A stretch of 36,538 bases of DNA from a virus: positions 1-36,538 of IMG/VR virus record IMGVR_UViG_3300046698_000387. One strand, written 5' to 3'. Positions within the stretch are counted from its first letter, which is position 1. Every line of letters starts with the position of its first letter. Shown here in pieces: positions 15,332 to 33,989 of the stretch. Both the position numbers and the translations under genes were made by a program. Below the pieces are notes generated by a model. That model was not told where the DNA came from, made no database searches, and saw only the letters and a program-made list of their open reading frames with translations.

Positions 15332-15470
15332 CTTTTTTGACCTTTTCTCGTGTATCCGGCTTGCACGGGCTTCGTACGGGGTCTGTAGCGCCTGTACTGT
15401 AACGTAATGTATTCCAAAGGAGATAGCGAACGCAACGGCCTCGGGAAAAGCTGTTCTACCATCTTGGTTG
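15332..15470. promoter_or_regulatory. Divergent promoter region of the virion operon
   Basis: A 139-bp spacer between the 502-residue minus-strand gene and the plus-strand virion operon. It contains 'ctgtactgtaacgtaatg', and TACCAT at 15457-15462 lies 8 nt before ATG 15471, a weaker form of the leaderless arrangement. No clear -35 box. Confidence 0.4.
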
Positions 15471-16661
15471 ATGGCGCCTCAATCAGCCTCGACCTTCGGC
15501 TACTTCCAACCTTCCCCGATTCCCGATGTGGCGACGGCTGAGACTATCCTCTTTATGTGCGGCTGCATCGACGGCTCGGCGCGCAATGCCCTGGTGCAAC
15601 AAGCGGCGCGGGATGCGGTAGCGGGGTTCGGTTCGCTCGGGGCCTTCGACGTTGCGGCCGGCGTGGTTGTTCCCTCGGTAGCGCAAACCAATGCGGATCT
15701 GGCGCGGGCCGTCTACTGGTACGCACGCTACAACATCGGCCGGCTGCACCATGGCGAGTTCAAAGCGCTGGTCGAAGCGTTCCCTGAAAAAAAGCAACTG
15801 CTCATCTCGCCCGATCTGCTACTCACGTCCTACCCGCAAGGCGATTGCTCGGCGTTCACAATGGCGATCTGCGCGCTGCTCAAGTGCTTGGGCATCGGTT
15901 ACGAGCTGGTGGCAGTCGCTGCGGACGGGCGCGATCCGTCGATCTTCTCACACGTCTACCCGCGGGCGATCGTGGAAGGCGGGGCGCGCCTGGTGCTCGA
16001 TGCGCATGCGGGCCCGTACCCGGGCTGGGAAGTACCGGCGGAAGATGTGTTCCGTAAACAGGTCTACGATTCGCAGGGGACTCCAGTGTCCGATCAGCCT
16101 TCTGGCTTTAAGGGGTTGCACATGTACCAATGGCGCGGCGGTATGGGGGATGTGGTTTGCGATTCGGAAGGGAACTGCGCGGACGATGGCAGTTCGATCG
16201 ATAGCAGCGGGGCATCGGTTGATTCTTCCGGCACGGAATGCGCGTTCGGTGCGCCGGTAGGCGGCGTGTGTCCCTCCGCTACGCCTTCGGTTGGCACTGG
16301 CATTACTGGATCATCCTGCCCCAACGGTTTTCAACTGAATGCGGCAGGCGGGCAGACGGGCCTGTGCAATTCCTATCCGGCGGGTTCTCTGACGGCTCCC
16401 TCACAAAGCGACTCCGCGGCTTGGGCTAACTTTGCAACCACGTTAACGAAGTCGGGCATGACCCTTGCGGAAATCAACGCCATTCAGCCGGGTACGGTGG
16501 TAAGCGCGAATGGATCGATCCTCCGGCAATCAACCGGCCTTGCGGTGCCAGTGGGAAGCGGTAGCAGCCTTACGGCGGCGCTTGGTTCGGGCAGCGGTTC
16601 AATGCTTGTTCTGCTTGCAGTCGGACTCGGCGCATTCCTGTTATTGAAGGGCAAGGGCTGA
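15471..16661 (+). CDS. Transglutaminase-like cysteine peptidase fused to a MYQW membrane module
   Basis: A 396-residue protein. Residues about 65-190 fit the transglutaminase-like fold: Cys in 'YPQGDCSAFTMAICALLK', His in 'IFSHVYPRA' and Asp in 'LVLDAHAGPYPGW' form the likely triad. Family members in phages are probably peptidases or amidases of wall or virion proteins. Near residue 218 the sequence MYQWRGGMGD appears, identical in style to the N-terminus of the protein at 1757. A Cys/Ser/Gly-rich region follows and a final membrane anchor (SMLVLLAVGLGAFLLL). An internal ATG at that motif (about 16123) has 'AAGGGG' before it, so a short product may also be made. It opens the virion operon. 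Confidence 0.7.
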   Translation: MAPQSASTFGYFQPSPIPDVATAETILFMCGCIDGSARNALVQQAARDAVAGFGSLGAFDVAAGVVVPSVAQTNADLARAVYWYARYNIGRLHHGEFKALVEAFPEKKQLLISPDLLLTSYPQGDCSAFTMAICALLKCLGIGYELVAVAADGRDPSIFSHVYPRAIVEGGARLVLDAHAGPYPGWEVPAEDVFRKQVYDSQGTPVSDQPSGFKGLHMYQWRGGMGDVVCDSEGNCADDGSSIDSSGASVDSSGTECAFGAPVGGVCPSATPSVGTGITGSSCPNGFQLNAAGGQTGLCNSYPAGSLTAPSQSDSAAWANFATTLTKSGMTLAEINAIQPGTVVSANGSILRQSTGLAVPVGSGSSLTAALGSGSGSMLVLLAVGLGAFLLLKGKG

Positions 16662-19107: not shown

Positions 19108-19491
19108 ATGTACGAACTTTCTCAACCTCTCAATCCGGAGCTCTACGGCGTGCGGCCCGATGGCGTTCGTTTCCTCGAGCGTCAAGGGATGGGATGCAGC
19201 GGCCTCGGCTGCAATGGCATGGGCGGATTGACCATGGACGGATCCGGCATCTTCGGTACTGGCATCTTCGGCACTGGGGTAACCTTGACGGACTTCTCAA
19301 CCTGGAGCATCGGGGAATACGCGGCGATCGCTGTCGGGCTCTTCGTGCTGTTCTCTGTGGCCTCCACGGGTCAGAGTGCCGCGTCTTCGGTGGGGCGCAA
19401 GGTCAAGTCGATATCGAAGATTGGGCAAAAGCGGCGGGCAACGAAGGCGGCGCGGCTTCGTAGTGAAGCGGCGCAACTGGAGGCGGCATGA
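19108..19491 (+). CDS. Single-pass membrane protein with basic coiled-coil tail
   Basis: A 127-residue protein starting MYELSQPLNPEL. The middle holds a Gly-rich repeat (GSGIFGTGIFGTGV), then a membrane segment (EYAAIAVGLFVLFSVAS) and a Lys/Arg-rich helical tail (KVKSISKIGQKRRATKAARL). 'gaggtaaaccc' provides the ribosome site. The basic tail could contact DNA inside the particle; inferred. Confidence 0.6.
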   Translation: MYELSQPLNPELYGVRPDGVRFLERQGMGCSGLGCNGMGGLTMDGSGIFGTGIFGTGVTLTDFSTWSIGEYAAIAVGLFVLFSVASTGQSAASSVGRKVKSISKIGQKRRATKAARLRSEAAQLEAA

Positions 19492-19757
19492 CGAATCGCC
19501 CCTTGACCTGGCCTTTCAAAATCGACAAGACCCAGCTCCTGAACGGGATTTTCGGCATCGTGTGCGCGGTCGCCTCGCTCGCTGCGGAAACCGATACCAT
19601 GCCCTTCCTGCCCGATAAGTGGAAGCACTACGTTTCCGGGGCCGCGGTAGTCGCCTTGTGGATCAAAGGGCACTGGAATTACTGGATCAACCCGAACGGG
19701 ACTCCAGCAACCACGGCGTATGTGGCGCAAAAGCCCAATCCGGCGGTGTCGCAATGA
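19488..19757 (+). CDS. Holin-like or small membrane protein
   Basis: An 89-residue protein with two hydrophobic segments (LLNGIFGIVCAVASLAA, residues 17-33; HYVSGAAVVALWIKGHW, residues 46-62) and a short soluble tail (NPNGTPATTAYV). Size and topology fit small phage holins, and similar proteins end in 'xGTPATxAYV'. It overlaps the next gene by 4 nt (ATGA). Holin role is a hypothesis. Confidence 0.5.
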   Translation: MTNRPLTWPFKIDKTQLLNGIFGIVCAVASLAAETDTMPFLPDKWKHYVSGAAVVALWIKGHWNYWINPNGTPATTAYVAQKPNPAVSQ

Positions 19758-20959
19758 AAACTCGGCGTAACATGTGGCCTTTCGGCACGAATCAGCCGCT
19801 CGGGCCGGTTGTGTCCTACGGCAAGCGGCGGCCGGCTCCGGTAGGTAGGTCACGCGCGTCCTCCCCTGCACAAGAGAAAGCGGCGGCGGCGGCAAAGCGG
19901 GCGGCGAAACTCGACGATCCGGCCTTGGAACGCAAGTTGAAAGCCCACTATGCCAAAGGAGGGAACCTTAACGAGTTCCTACAAGCGAATCCGGGGGCGG
20001 TCCCGAAGTGCCACCTTTGCCACAAGCCTTTGAAGGTTGAACAGACGTTGCATCGTGAGCCGGATGGCGGCATCGTGCATGATCTCTGCTGGCGGCGCCG
20101 CAACCCATCGAAGGCAACGGCAGAGGATAGGGAGCGGCGGGCGCAAGAAAAACATCAAGAGTGGGTGAGCGCGCAGCAAAAAAAGATGGTTGCGAAATGG
20201 AACGCTGAATTTGCGCGGCAGGCGGCGGCGAAGAAGCGAAGCAACGCGGCGCGCAATGCAGGTCGCGGCATGTTCCTTGATTCTCGCGTCATTGATAGGG
20301 CCGTTAAATCGCGGTATCCGTCGGCAACCGGGTGGACAAACCACAACGGCAAAATAATCGTGGATACGCCATCGGGAGAAGTGGTATTGACCTTGCGCCA
20401 GTTGGGCATCAGGCAACCCGATGATGACTATTACACCAATCCGGCAAAGGGCAAGCGTAACCCCTCTGCTGCTGCTGCCGATGTATACGAAGAGTTCCAC
20501 GGTATGCCCTCGGCTGAAATCGTGGAAGTGACGAAGCGGGTTCACTTCCATGAGCATCTTGCGGCCTTGGGGAAGCTCGAAGCTCTGGTAGTGCAGCGCA
20601 ACGGCAACGAACATCGTCTGGTGGGCTTCAAGGGCGCAAAGCTCTGCTGCAACGAGCGGAAGAATCAGTTGTTCGTTGAAGGCGGCGATCAGGCGCTTGA
20701 CGCTTCCGACTTCGGCTTCAAGGGCGATTGGCCGCATGAGAAGAACACGCTGGGGCCGGTCACGCGCTTGGAGTACTTCACAACCAAAAAGCATTTGGGC
20801 AGTGAAGGCGGCACGGCGATCTACTTCCACCTTCCGGCAGAGCCGGAGCGCGGGCGGTCTGCCGGCACGGGGCCGGATCTGATTTACGACGCGGTAAACG
20901 AGTCCCTGGAGTTCGCCGGGGGAACGTACGAGATTTTAGCGGAGGGCATCTCAAGATGA
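19754..20959 (+). CDS. RRNP-type zinc/basic protein with conserved C-terminal domain
   Basis: A 401-residue protein. The N-terminus is basic. Residues about 88-126 form a zinc site ('CHLCHKPLKVEQTLH', 'HDLCWRRRNPS'). Residues 127-240 are charged. Residues 237-401 are a domain I recall as conserved in uncultured phage genomes: 'YEEFHGMPSAEIVEV', 'HEHLAALGKLEAL', 'QLFVEGGDQALD', 'YFTTKKHLGSEGGTAIYFHLPAE', 'DLIYDAVNESLEFAGGTYEI'. Function unknown; such genes usually sit beside the HNH and lysozyme-like genes also present here. ATG 19754 overlaps the previous stop. Confidence 0.7.
   Translation: MKTRRNMWPFGTNQPLGPVVSYGKRRPAPVGRSRASSPAQEKAAAAAKRAAKLDDPALERKLKAHYAKGGNLNEFLQANPGAVPKCHLCHKPLKVEQTLHREPDGGIVHDLCWRRRNPSKATAEDRERRAQEKHQEWVSAQQKKMVAKWNAEFARQAAAKKRSNAARNAGRGMFLDSRVIDRAVKSRYPSATGWTNHNGKIIVDTPSGEVVLTLRQLGIRQPDDDYYTNPAKGKRNPSAAAADVYEEFHGMPSAEIVEVTKRVHFHEHLAALGKLEALVVQRNGNEHRLVGFKGAKLCCNERKNQLFVEGGDQALDASDFGFKGDWPHEKNTLGPVTRLEYFTTKKHLGSEGGTAIYFHLPAEPERGRSAGTGPDLIYDAVNESLEFAGGTYEILAEGISR
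19847..19862 (+). repeat. Dispersed 16-bp motif
   Basis: AGGTCACGCGCGTCCT, one mismatch to AGGACACGCGCGTCCT. Confidence 0.7.
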
Positions 20960-20999
20960 AACCCGCCCAAACGAGAACGCAACTTGAGGAGGTTGCATC

Positions 21000-21302
21000 A
21001 TGGCAATAGTAGCAACGCCGGTTGAAGCGACGAATAATTACAGGTCGTTCAACATCACGGCTCTCGACGCGGATACCACCCTGACATTCGCCCACGGCTT
21101 TGGGGCGGCGCCGCCGGACTTTTTCGCGGTCACTCCGGCGCTGTCGGAAGGGGTGACCAATACCAGCACCTGGGGCTTGACGGCCTCCGGCGCAAACTTC
21201 ATCCTGACCAAACAGAACGCTACGGGCAGTGGCGGGGCATCGGGCGGGGTTTCGGTTGTAGCCAAGGTCTGGGGCTGGCTCCCTCACACGGCGGCCCGGT
21301 AG
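21000..21302 (+). CDS. Small beta-rich virion-type protein, paralogue of the next gene
   Basis: A 100-residue protein with no signal or membrane segment. 'AIVATPVEATNNYRSFNI' at the N-terminus and 'FILTKQNATGSGGASGGVSVVAKVWGWLPH' at the C-terminus are repeated in the next gene. A strong ribosome site (GAGGAGG) lies 7 nt upstream of ATG 21000. The short beta-rich body could be a small jelly-roll or decoration protein. The stop is followed directly by a perfect dispersed-motif copy. Confidence 0.65.
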   Translation: MAIVATPVEATNNYRSFNITALDADTTLTFAHGFGAAPPDFFAVTPALSEGVTNTSTWGLTASGANFILTKQNATGSGGASGGVSVVAKVWGWLPHTAAR

Positions 21303-21316
21303 GACACGCGCGTCCT
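21301..21316 (+). repeat. Dispersed 16-bp motif, intergenic consensus copy
   Basis: AGGACACGCGCGTCCT, the reference form; it overlaps the stop codon and lies 19 bp before the next ATG. Confidence 0.85.
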
Positions 21317-21335
21317 CAGTGGAAAGGTGAATCCG

Positions 21336-22400
21336 ATGATAAAACGTATCTTGAGTTTGTTGGCTTTGATGGCCGCGGCGCTCGCGGTCGCGGTTCCCCT
21401 GGGCCTCTGTCATGGTCATTCCTTGCTGTGGCTGTTCGGCGGTGGCATGGGTCTTGCCGGTGCAATCGTGGCGACTCCAGTCGAAACCCTCAACAACTGG
21501 AAGGACTGGAACATCGCGTGCCTTGACGCCGATACGGCCGGCCAGTTCGCGCATGGCATGGGGCTCGCGCCCGACTTCTACACGATCACGCCGGGGCTAT
21601 CGTTTGGCGGCTCCGGGGCCGCGGGGTTGTCGCTTGGGACTGCCGGCGCTTACGGCGTCCTCGCGGGTACCACGATCACGAATACCGGGGCGACCCTCAT
21701 CACGGGCAACCTCGGCCTATCGCCTGGGAGCGCAGTAACGGGCGCGCCTGTAGTGACGGGCGCAACCAACATCGACAATCCCGCCGCGGTGACCGCTCAA
21801 GCCGATCTCACTACGGCGTATTTGGCCGCCGCGGCGCTCTCGCCTTCGACCATCGCCACGGCGCTTGGCGGGCAAACGCTCAATGCAGGTACCTACTCGG
21901 CGCTGTCGGGTACGTTCACCCTTGCCGCGGCGGGGGTTCTGATTCTCGACGGGCAAGGGAACCCGAACGCTCTTTTCGTCTTTCAGATGGCTACCACGCT
22001 GACAACTGGGGCGGGCTCAAGCATCTCGCTCATCAACGGCGCTCAGGCTCAGAACGTGATTTGGCAGGTGGGAAGCTCGGCAACCATCGGTACTACCACG
22101 GCGTTTTTCGGCTCCATCCTAGCCTTGACCTCGATCACGGTTAGCACGGGGGCCACGGTCAACGGTCGCATGCTGGCGCAGAATGGTGCCGTCACGTTGG
22201 CGGCCAACACAATCACCGTTCCGGGCTCCGGTGGAGGCGGCGGTGGATTCGGCGGCGCCCTCTCCCAGTGGGGCATGACGGTGGACGCCACGAACGTCTA
22301 CCTCACCAAACAGAACAGCGCGGGCAGTGGCGGGCCGGCCTCTGGCGTCTCGGTAGTCGCCAAGGCGTTCTGCTGGCGTCCGCATACGAGTAGGCGGTAG
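21336..22400 (+). CDS. Virion-type protein with inserted DUF3494 ice-binding-like domain
   Basis: A 354-residue protein. Residues 1-45 hold two hydrophobic stretches (ILSLLALMAAALAVAVPLGL; LLWLFGGGMGLAGA), so it is exported or membrane-anchored. Residues about 46-95 and 310-354 align with the start and end of the 100-residue protein upstream ('IVATPVETLNNWKDWNI', 'LTKQNSAGSGGPASGVSVVAK'). Between them lies a near-complete DUF3494 domain: 'AYGVLAGTTITNTGATLITGNLG', 'AQADLTTAYLAAA', 'GNPNALFVFQMATTLTTGAGS', 'NVIWQVGSSATIGT', 'FFGSILALTSITVSTGATV', 'GRMLAQNGAVTL'. DUF3494 is a discontinuous beta-solenoid found in ice-binding proteins and bacterial adhesins. A Gly-rich hinge (GSGGGGGGFGG) closes it. 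A GTG at 21327 would add three residues. Confidence 0.88.
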   Translation: MIKRILSLLALMAAALAVAVPLGLCHGHSLLWLFGGGMGLAGAIVATPVETLNNWKDWNIACLDADTAGQFAHGMGLAPDFYTITPGLSFGGSGAAGLSLGTAGAYGVLAGTTITNTGATLITGNLGLSPGSAVTGAPVVTGATNIDNPAAVTAQADLTTAYLAAAALSPSTIATALGGQTLNAGTYSALSGTFTLAAAGVLILDGQGNPNALFVFQMATTLTTGAGSSISLINGAQAQNVIWQVGSSATIGTTTAFFGSILALTSITVSTGATVNGRMLAQNGAVTLAANTITVPGSGGGGGGFGGALSQWGMTVDATNVYLTKQNSAGSGGPASGVSVVAKAFCWRPHTSRR

Positions 22401-22403
22401 CCC

Positions 22404-23291
22404 ATGGCCTACGTGGAACAAGTCACGCATATCGCAAACCCGGCAACCGGCCGGAGAAAGAGGCGCAATGTGGCAAAACGCATGACGCTGAAACAGAAGC
22501 TGCACTTCGGGACTTCGCGCCAACGCGCGGCTGCAAAGGCGGGCCTCTCGAAGAAACGACATTCCAAGGCGAAGCGGCGCAATACGGCCGCCCCTCGCAA
22601 ACGAGTTACCAGGCCGCGTACTCAAGCCGTGGCCCGGCGCCGGAACATTGGCGAAGTGGTGTACCTGCTTGGGGCAAATCCAGCACGTAAAAAAAGGAGC
22701 AATATGGCAACGAAAACCAGGCGCAAGGCTGGAAGCCACAAGCAAACCAGCAACCCGCGCCGCAAGCAGAATCGCCGGAGGAATCCGGTCATGGTCACGC
22801 GGAGACGCCACGCGCGCCGCAATCCGGGCAACGTGAACATCATGGAGTACGTGAAGATGGGCGGGGCCGTCGTGGCCGGCGCGGTGGGGTCCAAAGCCCT
22901 TACGCAGCTCGTCCTTTCGACTTCGAACGCGGGCATCATGGGGTACTTCGGTAACCTCGTGGCAACCATCGCCCTCGCATACGGCTCGAAGATGGCGTTC
23001 AAAGACGACAAGATCGCTCAGGGCGTCGTTGGCGGCGGTCTCGCTCAGATCATCGTCCGGGCGTTGACCGATTACACGCCGTACGGGTCGGTCCTCGCCA
23101 ACGCGGGCGTGGGCGACTACCAGACGAATTGGAACTTCGTCTGGCCGCAACGCGTGCAACCCGGCTATCCGCCGCGGTTCATCCAGGCGGCGGCAATCGG
23201 CGGCGGGCCCGCGGTCGGCGTGCCGGTGGTGACTCACGCGGCGCCCACGGGAGCGAAGGCGGGCGTCGGCTCCATGCAGAGGTGGAATTAG
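22404..23291 (+). CDS. Basic histone-like N-terminus plus membrane domain; nested start at 22704
   Basis: A 295-residue protein. Residues 1-150 are extremely Lys/Arg-rich with repeated RRN/RRNP words (KRRNV, ARRRNIG, RRRNPVM, ARRNPGN), as in DNA-binding proteins. Residues 150-225 are hydrophobic with two or three membrane segments ('GGAVVAGAVGSKALTQLVL', 'GYFGNLVATIALAYGSKMAF'). The tail is Pro/Gly-rich. At 22704 an in-frame ATG follows AAAAAAAGGAG by a 6-nt spacer, far better than the start at 22404, so a 195-residue product is likely made too. It could tether packaged DNA to an internal membrane; that role is inferred from composition and its place next to the capsid gene. Confidence 0.65.
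   Translation: MAYVEQVTHIANPATGRRKRRNVAKRMTLKQKLHFGTSRQRAAAKAGLSKKRHSKAKRRNTAAPRKRVTRPRTQAVARRRNIGEVVYLLGANPARKKRSNMATKTRRKAGSHKQTSNPRRKQNRRRNPVMVTRRRHARRNPGNVNIMEYVKMGGAVVAGAVGSKALTQLVLSTSNAGIMGYFGNLVATIALAYGSKMAFKDDKIAQGVVGGGLAQIIVRALTDYTPYGSVLANAGVGDYQTNWNFVWPQRVQPGYPPRFIQAAAIGGGPAVGVPVVTHAAPTGAKAGVGSMQRWN
22690..22706 (+). promoter_or_regulatory. Strong internal ribosome-binding site and start
   Basis: AAAAAAAGGAGCAATATG lies inside the 22404-23291 frame; AGGAG is 5-6 nt before ATG 22704, which begins MATKTRRKAG in the same frame. Confidence 0.7.
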
Positions 23292-23333
23292 CGCCTGAGG
23301 CGCTGAACGGGGCGCGGGATCGTCTCGCGCCCC
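23291..23333 (+). terminator. Double hairpin before the capsid gene
   Basis: Two stems follow the stop codon: GCGCC-tga-GGCGC (23291-23303) and GGGGCGCG (23309-23316) with CGCGCCCC (23326-23333), the latter a perfect 8-bp stem followed by AAAA rather than T. They may be a partial terminator or an mRNA-stabilising 5' structure for the capsid transcript. Confidence 0.6.
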
Positions 23334-23361
23334 AAAACAGACGAAAAGGAGAATTTCAACA

Positions 23362-24132
23362 ATGACACCATCAGCGAATCAGGGCATTATCGGCCAGCGC
23401 GCCGCCGCCGCGGGAGTCAGCCTGACTCCCGGCGGGAACGTTTCCCAGGCAGACATGAACGCCTTCATGGGCGGCATCAAGGACGTTGTGACGGGCTTCT
23501 ACTACTCCACCATCAAGTTGGCGGCGGGGCAGGCTCTGAGCAACATCTACAACTTCTTCAACGCGGGCCTGGGGCAACCCGACCCGTATCCGCTCTCGAC
23601 CGTGACCGGCCCGGTGCCGATCCTCTCCAAAGTGGAAACCAACATCCTCGTGGCCTCGAACTTCGGTTTGACGCCTCCCTACGACATCATCATCGACTCC
23701 ATCGGGCTGTACGTGGACCCGATGACGGTGAAACGCGACCTCGACGTGCTGCGGCTCTACAGCTACTTCGAGTTCCAGATCCTCGGCAAGGTTCAGTGGG
23801 ACGGCAAGATCGAGTTCTACCCCGCGGGGCAGGGCGTCTCCGGCTTCTCGACTCAGAGCAACGAGTCCGGCTGGCAGAACGGTATCAGTGATCCCAACGC
23901 CAAGAAGCGCTTCGGGGAATACGGCAAGTACCTGCCTCCGAACCTCTCGTTCTCGTGGCCGCTGTACTTCCCGCCCACTTCCGGCCCGGTCGGCGGAACT
24001 TTCCCGCCCACTGCCGCGACGGGCATTCCGTCTCAGGTTTCCTTGCTGGCCTATGCCGCGACCCCGACGCCGGGGTTGGGTACCCAGTTGCGCGCCATCA
24101 TGAGCGGCATCCTGGGCCGGCCGGTCACGTAG
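23362..24132 (+). CDS. Probable major capsid protein
   Basis: A 256-residue protein. The N-terminal 45 residues are helical and Gly/Ala-rich. The rest alternates short strands and loops ('YDIIIDSIGLYVDP', 'YSYFEFQILGKVQWDGKIEFYP', 'LSFSWPLYFPP', 'SQVSLLAYAA'), compatible with a jelly-roll-type capsid. Evidence for high expression: a consensus AAAGGAG site, hairpins on both sides making its own message, and codon choice strongly biased to C-ending codons (ttc, atc, aac, gac), more than in neighbouring genes. No match to the HK97 capsid plan is visible. The major-capsid role is inferred from this context. Confidence 0.6.
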   Translation: MTPSANQGIIGQRAAAAGVSLTPGGNVSQADMNAFMGGIKDVVTGFYYSTIKLAAGQALSNIYNFFNAGLGQPDPYPLSTVTGPVPILSKVETNILVASNFGLTPPYDIIIDSIGLYVDPMTVKRDLDVLRLYSYFEFQILGKVQWDGKIEFYPAGQGVSGFSTQSNESGWQNGISDPNAKKRFGEYGKYLPPNLSFSWPLYFPPTSGPVGGTFPPTAATGIPSQVSLLAYAATPTPGLGTQLRAIMSGILGRPVT

Positions 24133-24370: not shown

Positions 24371-24723
24371 ATGGAAAACTCCCATGTGGTGAGGTTGGTT
24401 GCCCCTTAAACCGCCGGGCCGCCGCGAAAATCTCGCGCTGGCGCAAGGCTTTGGTGGGCATCTACGGAGTAGCTTGCTTGGTTTTCTTCCTGCTACCGCA
24501 CGGCGGGGTGAATGCTAAAGTGTCGCCTCCAGAGACGTTTAATCAGTCTCAGCAAATGGACGATCAACGTTTGGGCGTGCTCGAAGCAGTAGGGTCGGAG
24601 CACCGTTTGAGCGTGTTGGAAGCTGAAGTAGCTAGCTTGGGGTGGGAGCTTCGGAGTATGCTAGTTGGCATGGCGTTGCTTTTGGTAGAGGCGGGCTTCC
24701 GGGTGGGAAAGCGGGCGGCATGA
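24367..24723 (+). CDS. Membrane protein with coiled-coil middle
   Basis: A 118-residue protein from GTG 24367: a short Cys-containing start (CGEVGCPL), a basic stretch, a membrane segment (VGIYGVACLVFFLLP, residues 30-44), a coiled-coil-like region (LGVLEAVGSEHRLSVLEAEVASL) and a second hydrophobic helix near the end. Overlaps on both sides. Topology suggests a membrane-spanning virion or lysis component. Confidence 0.6.
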   Translation: MNGKLPCGEVGCPLNRRAAAKISRWRKALVGIYGVACLVFFLLPHGGVNAKVSPPETFNQSQQMDDQRLGVLEAVGSEHRLSVLEAEVASLGWELRSMLVGMALLLVEAGFRVGKRAA

Positions 24724-25673
24724 CGGGCGAATCCCTCCGGCAACACGATATTGCGCTCTCCAAGTGCGGGCGTCCGCTGCCTCCGTTCCCTGGTGTGCGG
24801 GTCGTTCCGATCTCGAAGTCCTGGAAAGCCTGGGCCACGTTCAACGCGCCGCCGGCCACTCTCGTTTCGACGGTTCCCACAACGATCAGCGGCGATACAA
24901 CCTGGATGCTGCGGGCTATTTCGTCCTACGTCACCGTCCCGGTGGGCATCTCGCTTCAATTCCAGTTCCCGGACGGCAAATTCCTCTTTCACGACGTTTC
25001 GGACATTCGCGCGATCGGCGGCTTTGGATCTTGGCGCTATCCGTTGACGAAAGAACGCGCGTGTCCTCCTGGCACGAAGATCATCGCGACGTTCAACGAT
25101 ACGACTCCGGCAACGCCGCAAGCGGTCCCCCTGCTCTTAGAAGGGGCGTACTACTATCACGTGCCGGACACGGGCGGTTCGCGAACGCTGGCTCTCGTTT
25201 CTGCCCTGCCCCGATATGCCCCTCAGGTGAATCAAAACATTCTGGCGCCGTGCTGGGCGTTTGGGGAAGGGCCGCAACCTCCAACGGGCTTCAAGGACGA
25301 TGCGGGCGGCTTCACTTACGTCTCCCAGATTCAACCGATCGACGTTGGCGCCACGACGGCGAAAAACCAGTTGATCTCGATCCAAACAGAGGGCGGCTCG
25401 GACATGGTTGTCCGCAACGTCTATTTCAAGGTGACGCAAGATGCCGGGGTGACAGGCGCAAACGTCATGGTGAAGCTGCGGGACTCCAGCGGCTACGCCT
25501 TTACCGACGATTACATGCTGTACGGGCTGCTCAACGGCGTTCCGTTCCTGAAAGACTGGATTGTCCGGGCGACGAATACCGTCTTCGTCGATCTGAGCCT
25601 GGTAGACTACTCCGGCGCGGGCAATGTGTACGTGCAAGTCTTCTTGTCGGGTACGAAGCGGAGGCGGGCATGA
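24720..25673 (+). CDS. Tandem jelly-roll-like structural protein
   Basis: A 317-residue beta-rich protein in two similar halves. The first (about residues 30-165) has 'TTWMLRAISSYVTVPVGISLQFQFPDGKFLF' and 'CPPGTKIIATFNDTT'. The second (about 200-317) has 'DMVVRNVYFKVTQDAG', 'VMVKLRDSSGYAFTDDYMLYG' and a final strand 'GNVYVQVFLSGTKRRR'. The ending parallels 'FFGVKRY' and 'FMRGVKV' in neighbouring proteins. Two jelly-rolls in one chain is the double-jelly-roll plan, but the fold is judged by eye. ATG 24720 overlaps the previous stop. Confidence 0.6.
   Translation: MTGESLRQHDIALSKCGRPLPPFPGVRVVPISKSWKAWATFNAPPATLVSTVPTTISGDTTWMLRAISSYVTVPVGISLQFQFPDGKFLFHDVSDIRAIGGFGSWRYPLTKERACPPGTKIIATFNDTTPATPQAVPLLLEGAYYYHVPDTGGSRTLALVSALPRYAPQVNQNILAPCWAFGEGPQPPTGFKDDAGGFTYVSQIQPIDVGATTAKNQLISIQTEGGSDMVVRNVYFKVTQDAGVTGANVMVKLRDSSGYAFTDDYMLYGLLNGVPFLKDWIVRATNTVFVDLSLVDYSGAGNVYVQVFLSGTKRRRA
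25052..25067 (-). repeat. Dispersed motif (minus orientation)
   Basis: AGAACGCGCGTGTCCT, reverse complement AGGACACGCGCGTTCT; one mismatch to the consensus. Confidence 0.65.
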
Positions 25674-25753
25674 AGCGGAAGCGGACACGCGCGTCCTACC
25701 TGTCGCCGGCCTGCAAGCGGACACGCGCGTCCTACCTGTGGGGTGCTCTCTAA
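25670..25753 (+). CDS. Possible 27-residue peptide made of two motif copies
   Basis: ATG 25670 opens a frame that reads two 'KRTRASYL' units and ends exactly where the next gene starts (TAATG). The repeat comes from two dispersed-motif copies. It may be a leader peptide for translational coupling or simply an open frame through a DNA element. Confidence 0.3.
   Translation: MKRKRTRASYLSPACKRTRASYLWGAL
25682..25697 (+). repeat. Dispersed motif, tandem pair copy 1
   Basis: CGGACACGCGCGTCCT, inside a 25-base direct repeat (starting aagcggacacg, ending cctacctgt) with the copy 36 bp downstream. Confidence 0.85.
25718..25733 (+). repeat. Dispersed motif, tandem pair copy 2
   Basis: CGGACACGCGCGTCCT, 36 bp after copy 1 in the same orientation, 20 bp before the next start codon. 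Confidence 0.85.
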
Positions 25754-26472
25754 TGTGGGGCATGGGCGAAATGTTCGCGGTTTACGGCGGGGATAACTTC
25801 GTCGGGCCTATCCCGGTCGCACAACCCGCTACGGTGCAAGCCCTGCTGAACATGCTCCCACTGGAGCCGGGGCAAAGCGCGGCGCAACGGCTGGCGGCGG
25901 CCACGGCGGCTGCTCTCGACTACGCACAGACGATGATGCAGCGCGGGCAGGCTCCGGCCCTGGTAGACCCGGGCGTCTATTACCGGCCGCAATTCGTTCC
26001 AGCGCCGACGCCGCAAGGCTTCCACGATGTAGACTTTATCGCCTACTTCGATGCGATCTCCACTCCGGTGCTTGGGATCACGCTACAGGCTGGCGCCGAA
26101 CAGTTGGACGTTCCCTTGCAACTGGAAAACGATGCGGACTTCATCTTCCGGGGAATCCGAATCCTTGCGACCCTCGCGTCAGAAAGAGGCGGGGGGCTGC
26201 CGCCGCGGTTCCAGTTCAAAACGCCTGATGGTACGCCGCTGTCTTCCAAGTTTCCCGCGCTGCCTCCCCGCTTGGATCAGTCCTATCGGGCCGGTGGTTT
26301 GAACCTTGGGCCCACAGGCACATACGAGCTTCCCACGGTGCCAACGGACGCGGAAGTCCTCTGTCCCGCCAGCAGTGCCTTCCTGATGAACGTCTACAAC
26401 CCGAATGCGGTACCCGCCACTCTCAGCGGATTCATCGCTTTCTTTGGAGTAAAGAGGTACGCCAATGGCTAG
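25753..26472 (+). CDS. Jelly-roll-like structural protein
   Basis: A 239-residue protein. Residues 1-75 are mostly helical (PATVQALLNMLPLEPGQ; AAALDYAQTMMQRG). Residues 78-239 form a beta-rich domain: 'YYRPQFVPAPTPQGFHDVDFI', 'EQLDVPLQLENDADFIFRGIRI', 'RFQFKTPDGTPLSS', 'CPASSAFLMNVYNPN' and a closing 'GFIAFFGVKRY'. The protein at 33615-33989 is a truncated relative of this domain. ATG 25753 overlaps the upstream stop. A minor capsid or vertex role is likely but inferred. Confidence 0.65.
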   Translation: MWGMGEMFAVYGGDNFVGPIPVAQPATVQALLNMLPLEPGQSAAQRLAAATAAALDYAQTMMQRGQAPALVDPGVYYRPQFVPAPTPQGFHDVDFIAYFDAISTPVLGITLQAGAEQLDVPLQLENDADFIFRGIRILATLASERGGGLPPRFQFKTPDGTPLSSKFPALPPRLDQSYRAGGLNLGPTGTYELPTVPTDAEVLCPASSAFLMNVYNPNAVPATLSGFIAFFGVKRYANG

Positions 26473-26788
26473 GCTGACGAAAAAGGCTCGGCGCAATGCG
26501 GCGCTCAAGGGATGGCGGCGCCGGACGCGCAATGCTCCGAAGCGGCGCAACGCCGGTAGCTCTCAGAGCGGTAGTGGCAATTCGCCTACGGCTACCCGGA
26601 CGGCAACCTCCACGAAGGCAACCACCACGGGCAACAAAACCGGAACGTCTACGGGCGGCGCGGTATCGGGTGGCGGGGGGAATATCACCGTGAACGTGAA
26701 GCGCAACCCTCCGAAGGGCTTTATCCGCTGCTCTGGGGTCAAGATCACCCGGAAAAACGGTAGGACAGAGGTACGAATCAGGAAATGA
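26465..26788 (+). CDS. Small basic RRNA/KRNP-type protein
   Basis: A 107-residue protein: a Lys/Arg-rich start (ARLTKKARRNAALKGWRRRTRN), a Ser/Thr/Gly-rich linker (residues 30-75) and a basic beta-rich end (VKRNPPKGFIRCSGVKITRKNGRTEVRIRK). It shares composition with the 22404 protein. Overlaps both neighbours (8 and 4 nt). Probably binds nucleic acid in the particle. Confidence 0.6.
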   Translation: MARLTKKARRNAALKGWRRRTRNAPKRRNAGSSQSGSGNSPTATRTATSTKATTTGNKTGTSTGGAVSGGGGNITVNVKRNPPKGFIRCSGVKITRKNGRTEVRIRK

Positions 26789-27774
26789 CGCCTCAACCCC
26801 AAATCGAGCAATGGCGGCATCACGATTACGTATTCTCGGTGCCACCGCTGGTCTCTGGTCAACTGATTCAAGCGTTCCCGTTCCAGTTCGATGCGGACTA
26901 CCCCTTTGAAATGCGCTCCATGGCGGCGCGCGTGCCGTACTCTTCGACTGCGGGGCCCACGTTCGGGACGCAAGCGGGGCTGAACCTCATCTCAATGCGC
27001 TGGTCGGGTCCGAACAACGACTATCGGCAAGCGGCCGGCACGAACGCGACCAATACCAGCCTGGTCCCCTTGAACCTGCTGCTCGGTCCCTACTTCGGCC
27101 AACTCGGAAACCCAAAGCCGGTCTATCCTCCAATCCGTTACCCGCGTTCGGGCTTTATGATGTTCGACATTCGGAACGACGGGCCGAACACGATCACGGG
27201 ATTGCAGATCTTCATGCGGGGTGTGAAGGTCGGGCCGTGGGGGTCATGGGACACCTACACATACCCGGCGCAGATGGGGCGGCAACCGCTGCCGTTCTGG
27301 TATCCCTCGCAGCTCGTTTCGACGGCCGTACCGAATCCGGCGCTTCAAACCCAGACGCTGGCGGTCAATCAGGTCCCGATCCTCAATAATCCCTTCGTGC
27401 CGGATATCGACTCGGACTTCGTGTTCCGCTTCGGGCAAGCGGGACTTGAGGGAGCCTACGAGGTCTTCATCACCTTGCGCGATGAGGGGTGGAAGCCCTA
27501 CAGCACGGACGGCACGGGGCATCCGGCGCCGGTGCATGCGGATATCCTCTTCGGGCGCTCCGGCTTCCCGGCGGTGTTTCCTTGCGGCCCTGCGAATTTT
27601 GTGGCTCCGGTCGGGCCGGGGGCGTCCCAGCCTGGCTTGATCGTCCCTGAAATCTACCTCCCGAAGAACCATCGGATGTACTACGACATCCAGCGGGACG
27701 ATAAAGCTTATGCGGGGGCGGCTCCTGTCGATTATCCGATGACTTGGGGGGGAATGAAGGTGTACCCAGCATGA
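26785..27774 (+). CDS. Tandem jelly-roll-like structural protein
   Basis: A 329-residue protein with two beta-rich repeats. The first (about 25-155) contains 'IQAFPFQFDADYPFEMRSMAARV' and ends 'MMFDIRNDGPNTITGLQIFMRGVKVG'. The second (about 195-329) contains 'PDIDSDFVFRFGQAGLEG', 'VFITLRDEGWKPY' and ends 'MYYDIQRDDKAYAG...MTWGGMKVYP'. The matching order of a DxDFxFR strand, a loop and a final GVKV/GMKV strand in both halves supports an internal duplication, as in double-jelly-roll capsid proteins. It is an alternative major-capsid candidate. Confidence 0.6.
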   Translation: MTPQPQIEQWRHHDYVFSVPPLVSGQLIQAFPFQFDADYPFEMRSMAARVPYSSTAGPTFGTQAGLNLISMRWSGPNNDYRQAAGTNATNTSLVPLNLLLGPYFGQLGNPKPVYPPIRYPRSGFMMFDIRNDGPNTITGLQIFMRGVKVGPWGSWDTYTYPAQMGRQPLPFWYPSQLVSTAVPNPALQTQTLAVNQVPILNNPFVPDIDSDFVFRFGQAGLEGAYEVFITLRDEGWKPYSTDGTGHPAPVHADILFGRSGFPAVFPCGPANFVAPVGPGASQPGLIVPEIYLPKNHRMYYDIQRDDKAYAGAAPVDYPMTWGGMKVYPA

Positions 27775-33598: not shown

Positions 33599-33614
33599 TA
33601 CAATGGGCCTTGTA
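33599..33614 (+). promoter_or_regulatory. Promoter TACAAT + 10 nt
   Basis: TACAAT (33599-33604). An ATG at 33603 lies inside the box and would be upstream of the transcript start, so ATG 33615 is preferred. Confidence 0.6.
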
Positions 33615-33989
33615 ATGCCCTTCCGTCCTCAATTCGCCTATCCTCCTCCCCCCGATGGCTTTGCAGATGACGACTTCAACTACGTCTACTCGGCTCAGAA
33701 CACGCCAGCATTGGTTCAAGGGATAGCACCAGGTCAAACGGTGCTCGACGTGTCCCTGTCCCTGGAACTGGGCGCGGAGTACCACATCCGATCCATCGAA
33801 GTAATCGACCCATCGGGATTGGGCGGCTTTCGGTTCCGTGATGCCTCTGGAACGCTCCTCGTGGAAAATGGGGCTTTCGTGCCGTCCTCTCTGGGCTTCA
33901 ACCCGTCGCCGGGGTGCATTGCCCTCGAGCCGGAATTGGTCTGTCCTGCTGGATCGGCGTTAACGGTTGACATCGCAAACCTCTCGTAG
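33615..33989 (+). CDS. Truncated jelly-roll-like protein
   Basis: A 124-residue relative of residues 78-225 of the 25753 protein: 'RPQFAYPPPPDGFADDDFNYVY', 'TVLDVSLSLELGAEYHIRSIEV', 'FRFRDASGTLL', 'CPAGSALTVDIANLS'. It stops where the relative continues into its last strand (AFFGVKRY), so the closing strands are missing. Its final codons begin repeat element V1. It may be a partner or decoy subunit, or decaying. Confidence 0.65.
   Translation: MPFRPQFAYPPPPDGFADDDFNYVYSAQNTPALVQGIAPGQTVLDVSLSLELGAEYHIRSIEVIDPSGLGGFRFRDASGTLLVENGAFVPSSLGFNPSPGCIALEPELVCPAGSALTVDIANLS

Follow-up and report, generated by a model that had tools for sequence, protein, structure and literature searches.

The best-known examples of exchangeable decoration on phage particles are Ig-like domains. 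In phage tail sheaths, these and other extra domains are optional, horizontally exchanged and proposed to mediate weak adhesion (PMC9230969), and Hoc is presented as an Ig-like decoration of a phage structural protein (PMC10385173). Ice-binding proteins (IBPs) of the DUF3494 family (Ice_binding, PF11999) are known as secreted proteins or as fusions to cellular adhesin repeats, and the solved type 1 IBPs AnpIBP (7bwx), EfcIBP (6eio) and FfIBP (4nu2) share a triangular beta-solenoid with a long alpha-helix. The B-face substitutions S153Y and T156Y cut the thermal hysteresis activity of AnpIBP to 17% (PMC7277481), and the ice sites of the family share no conserved sequence motif (PMC7966756). An IBP-like solenoid is also inserted into ComZ, a competence pilin of Thermus thermophilus (6qvi); it is closest to FfIBP, lacks conserved ice residues, binds DNA, and has been proposed to act as a receptor at the pilus tip (PMC6561018). 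Viral PF11999 genes have been reported in Arctic vOTUs, where they were called auxiliary metabolic genes and read as host cryoprotection; no insertion into a structural protein is mentioned in the passages concerned (PMC11515562).

The DNA analysed here (the window, the whole stretch of 36,538 nucleotides) encodes a DUF3494 domain in a different setting, as a loop insert in a viral protein. The 354-aa protein at 21336..22400 (+) consists of an N-terminal hydrophobic segment with two short hydrophobic stretches (21336..21461, +), the first half of a small domain (AIVATPVE...TPGLSFGG; 21462..21614, +), DUF3494 flanked on both sides by glycine-rich linkers (21657..22217, +), and then the second half of that domain (SQWG...RPHTSRR; 22263..22397, +). 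ATG 21336 is the likelier start, since it is preceded by GGAAAGG ca. 8 nt upstream and aligns with the starts of the orthologues; in the 357-aa frame opening at GTG 21327, PF11999 occupies residues 111-297. The domain had been recognised by a sequence-only reading from its hallmark words, and a PF11999 profile search confirmed it at full length (21657-22217, +), covering positions 1-208 of the 208-position model at E 2.1e-58 and with 191.8 bits (cut-off 28.7). An AlphaFold2 model of this part (pLDDT mostly >85, helix at 149-166) is predicted to adopt the triangular solenoid and long helix of the solved IBPs. It superposed on AnpIBP with Z 31.8 and an rmsd of 1.4 A over 198 aligned residues (46% identity), and on EfcIBP with Z 31.2 (45% identity). 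The match to ComZ was lower (Z 12.9): both proteins carry a solenoid inserted into another fold of a surface structure, a putative one in the window protein, but ComZ is a non-viral, DNA-binding pilin with a longer solenoid and about 10% identity.

Directly upstream, at 21000..21302 (+), lies a 100-aa protein that matches the small-domain profile (E 5e-49) and has neither the N-terminal anchor nor DUF3494. The N-terminal flank of the 354-aa protein is 48-51% identical to it (E 9e-17) and the C-terminal flank 58% (E 3e-13), with alignment scores of 161 and 142, where 1000 shuffles reached 60-64 at most. The duplication is also visible at the DNA level, as a direct repeat (D1) of 120 nt with 70% identity between 21171-21290 and 22269-22388. 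The proposed paralogy of the two proteins therefore held, as did the placement of the insert in a single loop, as judged from alignments on both sides of the domain. In the sequence of the 100-aa protein, the insertion point falls after LSEG and before STWG, and the length of this loop varies among small-domain homologues. As AlphaFold2 gave the flanks a pLDDT <50, the match between flanks and 100-aa protein rests on sequence alignment, and no fold is claimed for the small domain. Words shared by the insertion boundaries were considered as a possible target-site duplication and rejected: the longest was 8 nt, and about 13-14% of random pairs share a word at least as long. Scanning 19400-23500 for promoters and terminators yielded nothing informative.

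Single-sequence scans with the window proteins at 21000, 26785 and 23362 recovered no relatives. The protein encoded at 22404..23291 (+), whose N-terminus is strongly basic and bears RRNP motifs and whose C-terminal half is hydrophobic, led to one (L007, a 40.0 kb record), and an aligned capsid candidate led to three more (L008, L010 and L011). Gene order is common to the window and its relatives across most of the structural module, in which the small gene keeps its position between homologues of a conserved gene upstream of the array (19754..20959, +) and the RRNP gene; the latter directly follows the small gene or array in every relative covering the locus. PF11999 was absent from all four records, that of L011 being short and ending before the locus. 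In the three related viruses L007, L008 and L020 (G003), the orthologue is 140-150 aa long, starts with a hydrophobic segment and carries no insert; the maximum hydrophobicity of this segment (KD19) was 2.4-2.6 in all four proteins, that of the window included. The segment had been read as an addition to the inserted copy; its presence in the un-inserted orthologues of three relatives makes it ancestral instead, and DUF3494 was most likely gained in the window's lineage. By the same comparison, the 100-aa copy is a duplicate that lost its N-terminal segment. G003 retains 22 residues of a second small-domain copy (L020 3900-3965, -), which indicates that the small gene was duplicated more than once at this locus.

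In all three relatives the small gene is immediately preceded by a glycosyltransferase gene of about 480 aa, with a PF00535 match in L008. These glycosyltransferase-2-type genes are found at L007:8070-9521, at L008:1950-3395 and, in L020, upstream of 4408 (-). The L007 and L008 proteins end in QLEEVA, and the window retains a relic of this 3' end (QLEEVAS; 20980..21000, +), the rest of the gene being gone.

In a more distant relative, L048 (a 56.0 kb record), the locus holds a tandem array of three small-gene copies, all detected by a small-domain profile built without L048 (E 1e-25, 8e-15 and 6e-14). The order there is a homologue of the gene at 19754, two other genes, a small protein (129 aa), a fusion of DUF3494 and small domain (326 aa), another small protein (116 aa) and the RRNP gene; in the fusion, DUF3494 is joined at the N-terminal side of the small domain. 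A tree of 39 DUF3494 domains grouped that of the window with viral domains of ~1,350-1,480-aa proteins (support 96/85) and with L044 (95/94), and the L048 domain fell outside this viral clade. Common descent of the two acquisitions, imposed by constraining them to one clade, was rejected (p-AU 0.003), so the window virus and L048, although related, appear to have taken up DUF3494 independently. Among cellular sequences, the group closest in the tree has acidobacterial members, some from bog and palsa MAGs; this gives no more than a hint of the host or habitat.

DUF3494 was also found in other phage proteins. It lies close to the C-terminus of 1,354-1,476-aa proteins in L002-L004, and these ~1,350-aa proteins gave no PHROG match. 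In seven homologues (L028-L031, L033-L035) the sequences before and after the domain align, with zero residues at its position, and one of them, L035, carries DUF3494 at a different place near its N-terminus. Further copies occur in neighbouring or other proteins of these records. In three cases the carrier was identified by PHROGs as a contractile tail sheath with DUF3494 in its N-terminal part: L058:3536-6397, L060:3782-6124 and L061:3782-6109 (phrog_279 at E 1.7e-25; phrog_2839 at E 2e-27 and 5.5e-30); the L060 sheath also matched PF17482 above the cut-off. The domain is thus present in unrelated structural proteins and missing from close relatives of its carriers, the pattern expected of a decoration domain. 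Phage Ig-like domains likewise occur in unrelated structural proteins, but they are beta-sandwiches, in contrast to the DUF3494 beta-solenoid, and the term 'ice' is absent from the account of sheath decorations (PMC9230969).

The viral-contig census comprised 26 loci, collected with the patterns GATNIDN and NV[FI]WQVG, which bias the copies that are found. At least 30 aa stood on both sides of the domain in 20 of the 27 viral DUF3494 proteins, some loci being truncated; among cellular DUF3494 proteins the domain was C-terminal in 11 of 15. By a crude hydrophobicity measure, none of the 27 viral proteins had a hydrophobic N-terminus, and the window protein is atypical of this set. A tblastn search of 50,697 phage records with DUF3494 variants gave no match and therefore did not recover S-SKS1, which is named in PMC11515562. 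A text search of the open-access literature found no paper joining DUF3494 and phage; a description elsewhere is possible. In two 110-kb phages a second DUF3494 protein of 383-388 aa was seen, at L023:6718-7884 (-) and L024:5448-6599; the latter is a few kb from genes that, judged by eye, resemble glycosyltransferases.

In our preferred explanation, to which we assign a probability of roughly 0.55, the 354-aa protein belongs to the particle, where it is membrane-anchored and displays DUF3494 as an accessory adhesin and exchangeable decoration module. The small, putatively beta-rich domain would be the ancestral part, and the solenoid would have entered its length-variable loop in the window's lineage, with the glycine-rich linkers allowing both domains to fold. 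Shown on the particle surface, the flat Ser/Thr-rich face of the solenoid could bind weakly to ice, mineral or cell-surface polysaccharide, and such binding might increase adsorption or retention in the habitat; the plain 100-aa duplicate may co-assemble with the inserted protein. We infer the location in the virion from the gene neighbourhood and from the use of the domain in tail sheaths, and we infer likewise surface display and adhesion. That DUF3494 sits in particle or tail proteins of other phages suggests that phages trade it as a surface attachment module, and its repeated uptake by different virion-type proteins argues that it behaves as an exchangeable decoration. The occurrence in sheaths and in other large virion-type proteins also strengthens the earlier idea of a particle adhesin or spike. 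A wider claim, that DUF3494 is a traded virion module in general (acquired separately by the window virus and L048, and present in tailed-phage sheaths and large virion-type proteins) by which particles stick to ice or surfaces as sites of adsorption, is put forward tentatively. If DUF3494 plays the part of Ig-like domains, phages would have a second decoration fold, an ice-binding-type beta-solenoid, and a connection would be made between their particles and adhesion to ice and surfaces; the paired plain and inserted copies, together with the un-inserted orthologues, offer clean controls for its function.

Other explanations can be weighed against the same data. One scenario is ice binding proper, in which the displayed domain protects virions or lysates during freeze-thaw in a cold habitat or gathers virions at ice; we regard it as doubtful. 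It agrees with the close match to AnpIBP and EfcIBP, with the presence of acidobacterial MAGs of bog and palsa samples among the nearest cellular relatives, and with the conservation in the window domain of both AnpIBP ice-site residues, S153 and T156. The same two positions are kept in nearly all copies, however, and a pair that is almost family-wide does not discriminate function. Given that a motif diagnostic of the ice site is missing from this family (PMC7966756) and that the related ComZ solenoid binds DNA with no conserved ice residues (PMC6561018), S153 and T156 are not proof of ice binding. Ice is a possible ligand of the window domain, and an adhesion or decoration module is the safest functional reading of it. 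The solenoid might instead act as a passive rigid spacer that lengthens, stiffens or shields a spike and binds no ligand. Beta-solenoids are rigid, and insertions at many unrelated hosts and sites would suit such a role; the flat-face S/T residues are conserved across the viral copies, which argues against it, though this conservation may be structural, and we consider the spacer improbable.

The hydrophobic N-terminus would also fit a protein of the infected-cell envelope. Such a protein would be anchored in the host membrane with DUF3494 outside, serving cryoprotection, cell-cell adhesion or exclusion as the product of an auxiliary gene, in line with the reading of viral PF11999 as auxiliary metabolic genes (PMC11515562). 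The gene stands, however, within a conserved block of structural-type genes, and most census copies are found inside larger virion-type proteins, tail sheaths included; we therefore judge this scenario unlikely. Should DUF3494 serve phages as Ig-like domains do, viral PF11999 matches would have to be re-read as structural modules rather than as auxiliary metabolic genes. Finally, a chimeric contig could have fused a DUF3494 gene to a phage gene, and the search brought up no other record arranged identically. Against such an assembly artefact, which we hold to be very improbable indeed, both insert junctions are in frame with glycine-rich linkers, the insert agrees in GC and GC3 with the flanks and the window genome and not with the 110-kb contigs, whose GC is different, and a related virus (L048) combines the two domains in a different way at this locus.

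As to the virus itself, PHROGs and Pfam searches of the window revealed no structural hallmark, that is, no recognised capsid, portal or terminase gene. The capsid candidate at 26785-27774, considered as a possible double jelly-roll major capsid protein of a tailless virus, gave a poor model (pLDDT 48) of two all-beta halves, with weak matches (Z 6.5-7.3) that included PBCV-1 and FLiP among unrelated beta proteins; its profile had no match among PDB chains or in a host search of genome contigs. The genes at the window ends (36518 to 18) are adjacent in L008 (14850-16731, the homologue of w35508 followed by that of w18), and the window therefore probably represents a whole genome in circularly permuted form. 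A paralogous family of structural-type proteins with a common domain of about 130 aa was noted at 24642-25673, 25624-26472 and 33603-33989. The protein at 1125-1598 matches a Tlde1 domain (PF10908) and phrog_24118, with a weak match to L,D-transpeptidase, and may possibly serve in lysis or entry. The proteins at 15468-16661 and 1757-2299 share a MYQWRG-type motif and hydrophobic C-terminal segments, and the latter resembles a small lysozyme-type protein (NNPGN motif).
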